Below are positions 2,105 through 10,523 of a stretch of 45,221 bases of DNA, in pieces. The position numbers were made by a program, and so were the translations under genes. The DNA is taken from positions 1 through 45,221 of the forward strand of contig JACPHU010000025.1 of NCBI GenBank assembly GCA_016188495.1, read 5' to 3'. Source of the DNA: Candidatus Uhrbacteria bacterium. Its GTDB lineage: Bacteria; Patescibacteriota; Patescibacteriia; UBA9934; GWF2-40-263. Numbering within the stretch: the first letter of the stretch is position 1; the number at the start of each line of letters is the position of its first letter. The notes beneath the pieces were generated by a model. The model had not been told where the DNA came from and ran no database searches. It saw nothing but the letters and a program-made list of their open reading frames with translations.

Positions 2105-5245
<3,141 letters not shown>

Positions 5246-7348: not shown

Positions 7349-8629
7349 ATGCGTTACATCGTTGATTGGCACATTCATTCTAAATATTCCCGTGCGTGTT
7401 CTAAACAACTTGAGTTGCCGATCATCGATGCTTGGTGCCAGCGCAAGGGGATTAATATTGTCGCCACAGGGGATTGGACCCATCCTTTGTGGTTTAAACA
7501 TCTTCAGGAAAATCTTGTTGAAACCAGACAAGGTATTTTTAAACTCCGTGATCCCATTGCTCCAGTACTTCCCAATTCTACTTCCACTGAGTTCATGTTG
7601 GTCCAGGAGGTGAGTCAAATTTATAAAAAAGGTGATAAGACTCGTCGGATTCATAATCTTATTTTTTCTCCTTCGCTTGAAACATGTGAGAAAGTGATTG
7701 CTGAATTGAATCGTCGTGAGTTTAATGTAAAAGCCGATGGAAGACCGATTCTTGGGATAGATTCAGAAAGTTTATATAACGTGTTAAAAGAGATCGATGA
7801 AAAGATTATTATGATCCCCGCACATGCGTGGACTCCTTGGTACGCGGTTTTTGGAAGTAAGTCGGGTTTTGATTCTCTCGAGGAATGTTTTGGACAGATG
7901 AGTCAGTATATTTATGCTATTGAAACAGGTCTTTCCTCAGATCCTTCAATGAATTGGCAGCTCTCTTCGCTTGATCAGGTCGTACTGATTTCAAATTCAG
8001 ACGCACATTCTCCAAGAAATTTAGGTCGTGAGGCAAACGTGTTTGAATTTGATGTTCCACCCAATTATGACGAGTTCGTTCGCGTCTTAAAAGAAAAAGA
8101 TGTTGATCGATTTAAATATACGATCGAGTTTTATCCTCAGGAAGGCAAGTATCATTTTGATGGATGCGCCAATTGCCATTTTTCTTCTACACCGCAGGAA
8201 TCTAAACGATTAGATGGTCGCTGTCCCGTCTGTAAGCGTCCTCTTACTCTGGGTGTTCATAACCGCATAGAAGAGCTTGCAGATAGAAAGGTTGAGGCGA
8301 TTCAAAATCGTAAAATTCCTTTTAAATCCATTGTTCCTCTGGCAGAAATTTTAGCAGAAGTCTTTGGGGTTAAATCAACGCAATCTAAGAAAGTAGAAGA
8401 AGTTTATCATCAAATCACTAATCAAATAGGCAACGAATTTACTATTTTGTTAGATACGCCTCTTGAGGTTATTCAAACCGTTACTTCAAATACGATTCTT
8501 GTTTCTGGCATTGAACGGATGCGTACAGGGCAGATTTATATTGAACCAGGATACGATGGTATTTATGGCAAAGTCCGTATTTTTGGTGAGGAAGGGTCTC
8601 CAAAACCTAAACAATCGATTCTTTTTTAG
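7349..8629 (+). CDS. Endonuclease Q family (PHP domain, Zn-binding)
   Basis: DWHIHSKYSRACSKQLE, ATGDWTHP, HAWTPW, NSDAHSP, plus CANC...CPVC zinc site. Confidence 0.85.
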   Translation: MRYIVDWHIHSKYSRACSKQLELPIIDAWCQRKGINIVATGDWTHPLWFKHLQENLVETRQGIFKLRDPIAPVLPNSTSTEFMLVQEVSQIYKKGDKTRRIHNLIFSPSLETCEKVIAELNRREFNVKADGRPILGIDSESLYNVLKEIDEKIIMIPAHAWTPWYAVFGSKSGFDSLEECFGQMSQYIYAIETGLSSDPSMNWQLSSLDQVVLISNSDAHSPRNLGREANVFEFDVPPNYDEFVRVLKEKDVDRFKYTIEFYPQEGKYHFDGCANCHFSSTPQESKRLDGRCPVCKRPLTLGVHNRIEELADRKVEAIQNRKIPFKSIVPLAEILAEVFGVKSTQSKKVEEVYHQITNQIGNEFTILLDTPLEVIQTVTSNTILVSGIERMRTGQIYIEPGYDGIYGKVRIFGEEGSPKPKQSILF

Positions 8630-8633
8630 AAAT

Positions 8634-8671
8634 AAAAAAACTCTCCCACACGTCTGGAAGAGTTTTTTATT
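8634..8671. terminator. bidirectional terminator
   Basis: AAAAAACTCT...AGAGTTTTTT between convergent genes. Confidence 0.6.
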
Positions 8672-8681
8672 TGAACGGAAT

Positions 8682-8807
8682 TTAACGTTTCTTTGCTGCG
8701 GCTTTCTTTTTTGGTGCAGCTTTCTTAACGACTTTCTTTACGGCTTTCTTTTTTGGTGCAGCTTTCTTTACTGGTTTTTTTGCTGCGACTTTTTTCTTTG
8801 CTGGCAT
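8682..8807 (-). CDS. 41-aa Lys/Ala-rich histone H1-like peptide
   Basis: MPAKKKVAAKKPVKKAAPKKKAVKKVVKKAAPKKKAAAKKR*; SD AAAGGAGGTGA upstream; absent from ORF track due to size. Confidence 0.85.
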   Translation of the reverse strand: MPAKKKVAAKKPVKKAAPKKKAVKKVVKKAAPKKKAAAKKR

Positions 8808-9085
8808 AGTTCCGAATCACCTCCTTTGTCCCTGATTTCTCAAGAACAAGTCAGAACCACTCATGACGATCCATCGGATCGTCGGGTTCCTCCTAGGATG
8901 TATGAATTATTAGATGCTCGATCGAGCATTGCACAGAGGTTGGAACATACACAGCTGTTGCATTATGACGTTGAAGATTTTTCAACGCTTGAGAACAGAT
9001 GTTCTCGCAATGCATTCAGTTGTGTACGTTCCAACACGGCGTGCAGTTTTGTCGTCGATGTGAAGGACGTGCTTACATCTACGAT
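8808..9085 (-). ncRNA. long structured 5' leader / possible cis-regulatory RNA of the H1-like gene
   Basis: 26-bp long-range stem (8939-9035) enclosing two hairpins, plus ATGCTCGATCGAGCAT hairpin; good promoter at 9092-9120. Confidence 0.5.
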
Positions 9086-9091
9086 ACCTCT

Positions 9092-9120
9092 ATTGTAAGA
9101 GAAAGAAAGAAACACGACAA
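9092..9120 (-). promoter_or_regulatory. sigma70-like promoter
   Basis: minus strand TTGTCG (9120-9115), 17 nt, TACAAT (9097-9092). Confidence 0.6.
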
Positions 9121-9221: not shown

Positions 9222-10523
9222 TTATTCTTTGACCACAAGAGGAATGGTTTCTTCTGCCCAGTTATAAATCCATTCCATATTTGCGTATCCAACGTTGACA
9301 CATCCGTGTGACATTGGGTGTCCGAAGTTTTGATGCCAGGGCGCATAGTGAATATAGATATGGGGAAAGAAGCGTAAGTTGTAAGGAACCCATCCCAGAT
9401 CATAATTGTAAGGGCTTCCACTTCCATAAAACCACGCATAATGAACAAGGGGAATTTTGGCTAAAACTTGATGATTTCCAAGGGGTGTAGCGTTATTGAG
9501 TCCACTTGAAATAAGAAAAGAATTTCTTAATACTCCCTGTTCAAACGCATACAAACGTTGCTGTGAAATGTCGACCTCGATACGTTTTGGTTCCGTGTAA
9601 GAACTAAATAACAGACGTCCAGGAGCAAAGAGAAGGCGGGTTTCATCAGAGGCTAAACTCAATGTTGTACCAGATTCAGAGAGAGGTTGTACTTCATTGC
9701 GAGTGATGTTAAGGACGGGTCCTGAGACAAGCGATGCGTAAATATTTTTTTTATACGACGTCAGGGAATGAATACCCAAACCATTTATGGAATATTTTTT
9801 TTCAGAAATCACTTCGGGCGAAGTGTGGATAACCATGGTTTTTATTTTTGGTGTCTCGCTCTGTTGTTGTGCAAGAATTAATTTTTTCTCACTGATCGTT
9901 CCTGCAACTCCAGAGCGATCATCCTGATCAAAAGCAAAAAAGTTTTGAATAAGTGTTGGTTCATCGTTCCAAGACCAGATACGTACATGAGGCCCTGCTC
10001 CTGCAGCAGGAAGCGTCACGAGTTCTGCGCGCTCATCACCCACAAGATCTCCGCAGGTTATATTTACACCCGCTCGCATTGCTTCTTCATAGGCAAAAAA
10101 TCCACCCGCATCGATTGCCTCTCCATAACGATTAAAAATACGAATATGAGGACCACCTCCGCGTTGTGGAGCCGTAATAATTTCATTGTGTCCGTCACCG
10201 GTCAGATCACAGGTACTCACATTGATGCCAGTCCCCAATGTGGCGGCATACGCAAGAAAGCTTTTAATTTCCGAACCATCTTGCCGGAGAATGTGAACTC
10301 GCGGTTCTAACCCCAGTCCATTTCCAATAATAATTTCCGAAATACCGTCCGTTCCTAAATCGGCCAATGAAAGACTGATCCCTCCTATCGCATCTCCTGT
10401 GAAGGGAAATTCAATTGACTCATCAAGTGAACCAACGGTGATGGAGGATGGATGTGCTGCCCAAGTAGCATGATGGGGAACAAGCAGACTCACCATCAGC
10501 ACAAGAAGAATCCCTATTTTCAT
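9222..10523 (-). CDS. secreted L,D-transpeptidase (YkuD) with N-terminal FG-GAP-like repeats
   Basis: C-terminal IYIHYAPWHQNFGHPMSHGCVNVGYANMEWIY; N-terminal DLTGDGHNEIITAPQRGGGPHIRIF repeats and signal peptide. Confidence 0.88.
   Translation of the reverse strand: MKIGILLVLMVSLLVPHHATWAAHPSSITVGSLDESIEFPFTGDAIGGISLSLADLGTDGISEIIIGNGLGLEPRVHILRQDGSEIKSFLAYAATLGTGINVSTCDLTGDGHNEIITAPQRGGGPHIRIFNRYGEAIDAGGFFAYEEAMRAGVNITCGDLVGDERAELVTLPAAGAGPHVRIWSWNDEPTLIQNFFAFDQDDRSGVAGTISEKKLILAQQQSETPKIKTMVIHTSPEVISEKKYSINGLGIHSLTSYKKNIYASLVSGPVLNITRNEVQPLSESGTTLSLASDETRLLFAPGRLLFSSYTEPKRIEVDISQQRLYAFEQGVLRNSFLISSGLNNATPLGNHQVLAKIPLVHYAWFYGSGSPYNYDLGWVPYNLRFFPHIYIHYAPWHQNFGHPMSHGCVNVGYANMEWIYNWAEETIPLVVKE

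Follow-up and report, generated by a model that had tools for sequence, protein, structure and literature searches.

The messenger RNA of a short Lys/Ala-rich (KA) gene in Uhrbacteria, very small bacteria most of which are uncultured, is predicted to be held together at its two ends by a kissing contact between hairpin loops. Comparative analysis gives good support to the proposal that the apical loop of the 5'-terminal hairpin, P1, and the loop of the intrinsic terminator, T, evolve as a base-paired unit. The gene was studied in a 45,221-nucleotide stretch of DNA from Candidatus Uhrbacteria bacterium (contig JACPHU010000025.1), here called the window, in which the transcript is read from the minus strand.

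The KA Locus and Its Transcript

The window contains a 41-residue Lys/Ala-rich histone-H1-like open reading frame (MPAKKKVAAKKPVKKAAPKKKAVKK..., 8807–8682), preceded by the Shine-Dalgarno sequence AAAGGAGGUGAU / AAAGGAGGTGAT (8827–8816) and by a leader of ~278 nucleotides. Both elements had been proposed in an original prediction made on this DNA and are present in the sequence, as is the promoter that it placed at 9120–9092. This promoter consists of TTGTCG (9120–9115), a 17-bp spacer, and TACAAT (9097–9092), and it is conserved in relatives. At the KA loci examined, ATCG or GTCG lies downstream of the −10 box at near-constant spacing. Because of this spacing and the conservation of the promoter, the A of ATCG at 9085 is a reasonable transcript start, and the putative transcript would run from there to an equally putative end at about 8634, a length of 452 nucleotides.

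The original prediction stopped at the reading frame and missed the intrinsic terminator at 8666–8637, AAAACUCUUCCA-GACGUG-UGGGAGAGUUUU, whose loop pairs with P1. The terminator is bidirectional and is common to the convergent PHP-domain gene (7349–8629), so that the mRNA of this neighbor would end in a loop resembling that of P1.

At the equivalent position in relatives there are KA-rich reading frames of 20–147 residues. They share the low complexity, basic Lys/Ala-rich repeats that are a trait of Hc1/Hc2-type proteins. Neither the 41-residue product nor a 147-residue relative matched a Pfam family in searches of a kind that low complexity limits. The locus is syntenic, situated between L,D-transpeptidase and PHP-domain genes, and most genomes have one syntenic copy. 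The upstream neighbor in the window (9222–10523) encodes an L,D-transpeptidase of the YkuD type that contains FG-GAP-like repeats, and an L,D-transpeptidase adjoining KA genes recurs across the order. Elsewhere in the window, a 23S rRNA match at 2116–5236 covers 3121 bases against a model of 2925 positions, which suggests an insertion or intervening sequence.

The Leader Contains Three Conserved Hairpins

Region 9100–8660 has a predicted folding energy of −128.8 kcal/mol, compared with −92.9 ± 5.4 kcal/mol for dinucleotide shuffles (z = −6.6, 0 of 100 shuffles as low), in agreement with the long structured leader of the original prediction. Three hairpins recur among relatives. P1 (9085–9051), recognized from folding and covariation, would form about the first 35 nucleotides of the window transcript, and nucleotides 1–33 across the family. 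P2 (9046–8929), CUGCAC...GUGCA(A), was delimited by covariation and length comparison. P3 (8929–8914), AUGCUC-GAUC-GAGCAU, was found by pattern search and has the near-invariant core GCUCGAUCGAGC (8927–8916). Across the family the P3 core reads GCUC-GRUC-GAGC, and its stem is kept in the variants ACUCGAUCGAGU and GCUCGGUCGAGC.

Among 23 distinct sequences, double changes occur at 8 of 11 pairs in P1, 5 of 6 in P2, and 1 of 5 in P3. For the three hairpins together this amounts to 14 of 22 pairs, with a covariation score of 0.334 against 0.131 for shuffles (matched by 0 of 500), in an alignment that leans towards structure, having been fitted to the covariance model. The covariation supports P1, P2, and P3 as RNA structures, and a cis-acting structured RNA ahead of the histone-H1-like gene is strongly supported. 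The covariation and conservation that were to be sought in relatives were thus both found, and the cis-acting RNA of the original prediction, as a leader or as its P1 core, extends to 32 genomes. An Rfam search had also been suggested; with Rfam 15, the window gave only rRNA and tRNA at the gathering score and nothing credible at a relaxed threshold.

The most prominent structure of that prediction fared less well. A 26-bp stem with two enclosed hairpins (9035–8938) is present in the predicted fold, as are the ATGCTCgatcGAGCAT and CGATCCatcGGATCG hairpins, but the stem and the hairpins that it encloses are specific to the window genome. They form an insertion that enlarges P2 by about 100 nucleotides and is the least conserved part of the structure; the P2 hairpin of relatives is 15–35 nucleotides long. 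The insertion occurs in no relative and only once within its own genome. In the comparison of sequences, the conserved unit is P1 with the terminator loop rather than the 26-bp stem.

The P1 and Terminator Loops Covary

The 6–8 nucleotides in the apical loop of P1 are complementary to those in the terminator loop downstream of the KA reading frame. In the window, CACGUC (9071–9066) pairs with GACGUG (8654–8649). The commonest combination among relatives is CGCGUC:GACGCG; genera g6 and g14 have CGCGCC:GGCGCG and g8 has UGCGCC:GGCGCA. One G·U pair is found in UGCGUC:GACGCG (g10 and part of g16) and one in CGCGUC:GACGUG (g13). The two loops pair at 31 loci in 30 genomes of 14 genera, with 6–9 bp as a rule and 5 bp at one locus (L023); for the orthologues L044 and L213, 9–10 bp are predicted.

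A gap-free composite alignment was made of 29 sequences, with the terminator core set manually in the matching register. In this alignment, 99.4% of the cells of the six core pairs hold standard pairs, compared with 7–63% in slid controls and 95.7% in shuffles. Double changes are present at three of the six core pairs (CG/UG/UA, GC/AU/GU, and UA/CG), and both flanking pairs covary (GC/GU/UA, and on the 3' side AU/CG/UG/GC/GU). The covariation score was matched by 0 of 500 shuffles. Because shuffles ignore relatedness, terminators were also permuted among whole genera, and permutation among the 14 genera gave p = 5e-5. On a tree of the PHP-domain protein, from which one genome (G012) was left out, the core double changes require at least about four events, one of which is, at best, common to g6 and g14. 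Independent core double changes are few: positions 1 and 2 account for at least one each, and position 5 for probably two. Two of the six core pairs are invariant and CGCG is self-complementary, so that part of the complementarity is uninformative.

The pairing is supported as specific to the KA gene. When 197 terminator-like hairpins, taken from 403 kb of sequence of 19 genomes, were scored against the P1 loop of their own genome, only the KA terminator, read on either strand, reached at least 15; the best of the other hairpins scored 14.5. In two genomes the KA gene is cut by a contig end, and the P1 loop was read before the other contig was consulted. The terminator on the other contig contains UGACGCG in G031, a 7-bp match (CGCGUCA:UGACGCG), and GACGC in G021, a 5-bp match (GCGUC:GACGC). 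Where the KA gene is duplicated in tandem (G006, locus L229), each copy has a P1 and a matching terminator loop.

Distribution among Uhrbacteria

A DNA search of 59 related genomes matched nine others, each ahead of a short KA-rich reading frame. A search with the near-invariant pattern GCTCGATCGAGC located the leader in numerous members of this family, at roughly one copy per genome, and the reversed-pattern control gave zero. As a general marker the GCTCGATCGAGC palindrome was rejected: eight loci fetched with it in the family were chance matches in G+C-rich coding sequence, and a longer pattern of this type, run over genome contigs, gave mostly chance matches outside Uhrbacteria. Of the 73 genomes available for the order, a P1-P2-P3 covariance model matched 25. 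These all belong to the family, and the count includes the window genome and one chance match. Among 381 genomes of the class, the model found nothing credible outside the family. Weak matches at L064–L066, L068, and L273 have no KA reading frame visible nearby and were taken as chance. Genera with diverged leaders were reached through synteny with the convergent PHP-domain gene. In total, the leader or a P1 core precedes a KA-rich reading frame in 32 genomes of 15 genera, all in one family of Uhrbacteria.

In g3 and g7, each represented by two genomes, the KA gene has a short leader that lacks P1 and a terminator without the loop motif; the two partners are absent together. On inspection, families f3 and f4 of the order have KA genes with structured leaders of their own and no clear P1-T kissing. 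The KA-rich genes of f4 (L233, L235–L237, L244, L246, L248, and L252) have a different 5'-terminal hairpin, and most of these loci have, at the terminator or immediately ahead of it, a long hairpin with an SD-like GGAGGAG near its tip. Several f4 leaders have no Shine-Dalgarno sequence beside the start codon, and the f4 transcripts may carry a ribosome-binding element at the 3' end. In f3 (L275–L277), the KA-rich genes are directly downstream of an L,D-transpeptidase. A leader hairpin is conserved there, GTTACG..CGTAAC in L275 and L276, and the terminator loops of L276 and L277 contain ATGCTTG.

A Putative Shine-Dalgarno Switch in Three Genera

The window belongs to a group of genera, g1, g5, and g15, whose leaders have a 3' half that can, according to models, fold in two ways that hide or expose the Shine-Dalgarno sequence. 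This switch is confined to these genera, and the case for it comes mainly from sequence conservation and from energy models. Its parts in the window are a putative anti-SD, CAUCCU (8900–8895), followed by strand A with the SD-like GGAGGAACC (8893–8885); strand B, GGUUCUGACUU (8858–8848), which can pair with A or with C; and strand C, UUCGGAAC (8816–8809), the alternative partner of strand B in the structure model. The SD-like motif GGAGGAAC, which is distant from the start codon, and the strand B motif GUUCUGACUU are invariant in the 10 leaders of these genera. Strand C has the consensus UC[A/G]GAAC, and both pairings of strand B are possible in 10 of 10.

The A:B state is the lowest-energy fold in all 10 Shine-Dalgarno regions and leaves 0–3 of the 6 SD bases free. 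The B:C state lies 1.2–5.8 kcal/mol higher, with 4–6 SD bases free in 8 of the 10. When the full 452-nucleotide transcript of the window is folded, the B:C form has the lowest energy. Covariation in the switch region is slight, for example C/G to A/U in L044. The other genera keep the P1-T pair and have different SD arrangements; hairpins ahead of their KA genes contain GGAGG motifs related to GGAGGAAC. A leader peptide was considered and rejected, as the short reading frames after GGAGGAAC, judged by eye, differ in frame and length between species.

Discussion

We favor an end-to-end kissing-loop mRNA that sets the stability or translation of a nucleoid protein as the probable function of this RNA. 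The pairing of P1 with T is itself well supported by covariation, and its effect would be as follows. The 5'- and 3'-terminal hairpins would form a kissing-loop complex, usually of 6–9 bp, in which the 5' end and the terminator are folded together. T is present only once transcription has ended, so the contact would mark completed messages, and a finished message would be in a different state from a nascent one. The kissed state probably shields both ends of the RNA from nucleases, sets ribosome loading, or does both, and finished RNA could differ from nascent RNA in its access to ribosomes. In this way the contact would set the dose of a DNA-binding protein that is very basic, and the gene is a plausible one for such dosing. 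In g1, g5, and g15, output is probably set at the bistable element beside the start codon, where A:B together with the anti-SD:SD pairing would hide the ribosome site and B:C would expose it. The kissing complex may bias this element, a further step in the proposal; the other genera keep the kissing contact without the element. It is also possible that the contact joins two separate copies of the mRNA.

Some of the same observations might be read as autoregulation: the KA protein, which is very basic, or some other protein would bind to P3 or to the P1-T complex and repress the mRNA that encodes it. Lys and Arg are very abundant in the product, and the near invariance of the P3 core is what would be expected of a recognition site. 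The KA sequences, however, are of low complexity, vary from 20 to 147 residues, and have no recognizable family, and P3 is absent from g2, g9, g10, and g16, all of which keep the P1-T pair. We regard this reading as doubtful, though it is compatible with the kissing-loop explanation and the two are not exclusive.

The layout of a small reading frame, a long structured leader, and pairing between the 5' and 3' ends recalls the fold-back of type I toxin mRNAs such as hok and aapA, whose full-length form is translationally inert and is activated by 3' processing (PMC6733600). Applied to the KA gene, the closed full-length mRNA would be inert, 3' trimming would free the active form, and the protein would be harmful in excess; the hiding of the SD in the lowest-energy leader fold agrees with this. 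The 3' element, however, partners P1 rather than the SD or the translation initiation region, the terminator hairpin would be hard to trim, and a KA-rich product encoded by one syntenic copy in most genomes is unlike a hydrophobic type I toxin. We consider a toxin-like fold-back unlikely.

It is quite improbable that the leader is a metabolite riboswitch or ion sensor, with P1–P3 as aptamer and strands A, B, and C as expression platform. A leader with several conserved hairpins and, after them, pairings around the SD that exclude one another would suit such a device, but few unpaired nucleotides are conserved beyond the P1 loop and P3, several genera lack P2 and P3, pairing with T accounts for the conserved P1 loop, and Rfam offers no match. 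Regulation by CsrA, considered because of GGA in hairpin loops, was rejected: csrA (PF02599) was found in 0 of 20 relatives including the window genome, and control genomes were positive.

Most improbable is a reading at the DNA level, with CGCGTC/GACGCG as one inverted motif through which a regulator loops the gene or as what is left of a mobile cassette with terminal inverted repeats. A single 6-mer does occur at the two sites in opposite orientations, so that protein-DNA co-evolution could yield the same covariation. Each site, however, forms part of a hairpin's apical loop in the RNA, one at the 5' end of the transcript and the other in the terminator; the stems differ between the ends, the P1 stem covaries strongly, and the flanking loop positions covary as well. 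The locus also keeps its place between the L,D-transpeptidase and PHP-domain genes in synteny and is not mobile. The differing stems and the synteny also led us to reject terminal inverted repeats of a mobile element as such.

The kissing-loop explanation, if true, would provide a bacterial counterpart of closed-loop mRNA. Terminator loops are usually regarded as filler; here the terminator loop appears constrained to pair with the first hairpin of its own message across 15 genera, a phylogenetically supported case of a bacterial mRNA closed end to end. The fuller proposition, that the terminator loop exerts translation or stability control on completed transcripts only and so doses a histone-like protein in Uhrbacteria, we hold to be evenly balanced between true and false. 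It makes testable the idea that terminators carry information back to the 5' end, and it would place an RNA control point on chromosome packing in Patescibacteria, a group for which, to our knowledge, little is known of post-transcriptional control. It also offers a search rule for any genome, in which the loop of a 5' hairpin is compared with the loop of its own terminator. In the open-licence literature we found no earlier description of this RNA in Uhrbacteria or Patescibacteria, nor of leader-loop/terminator-loop kissing for a histone-like gene. Pairing between the 5' and 3' ends of an mRNA is known from icaR, hok, and aapA; such control of a DNA-packing gene looks to be undescribed.

Comparison with Known Systems

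In the icaR mRNA of Staphylococcus aureus, a 3'-UTR motif pairs with the 5'-UTR of the same message and affects translation and decay, and compensatory mutations restore the contact (PMC3868564). The KA mRNA likewise has a 3'-UTR motif complementary to its own 5'-UTR, with a covarying core that is almost fully paired in the 29 aligned sequences. The icaR motif, UCCCCUG, lies 260 nucleotides past the stop codon in a long 3'-UTR and base-pairs with the SD itself; the contact lowers translation and gives rise to a site for RNase III (PMC3868564). In the KA mRNA, by contrast, the partners are the loops of the 5'-terminal hairpin and of the terminator; the P1 loop lies near nucleotides 12–20, well upstream of the SD, which the 3' motif does not occlude.

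The hok and aapA mRNAs also have a 5'-3' long-distance interaction, and 3' processing activates their translation; in aapA the contact sequesters the SD, and the toxins are hydrophobic and have antisense antitoxins (PMC6733600). A small reading frame, a long structured leader, and ends in contact are shared with the KA case, where comparative evidence points to the contact. The KA loop-loop contact differs in lying away from the SD, the product is Lys/Ala-rich and strongly basic, and the terminator is stable. The chlamydial hctA gene is silenced by the trans-acting small RNA ihtA (PMC13317200). There too an RNA controls a histone-H1-like nucleoid protein gene post-transcriptionally, as is predicted for the KA gene, but ihtA is a separate RNA acting in trans, whereas the control RNA of the KA gene would be the leader and terminator of the mRNA itself. 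The KA mRNA is therefore not a member of the icaR, hok/aapA, or hctA systems, since only the principle of a 5'-3' contact is shared, and the SD target, the toxin, and the trans RNA differ.

The 3' translation enhancers of plant viruses kiss a hairpin loop in the 5'-UTR and close an uncapped mRNA end to end, and the 3' element recruits translation factors in a viral and eukaryotic setting. The recruitment of translation factors by a 3' element is a viral feature that sets these enhancers apart, whereas end-to-end closure through two loops is the likeness predicted for the KA mRNA.
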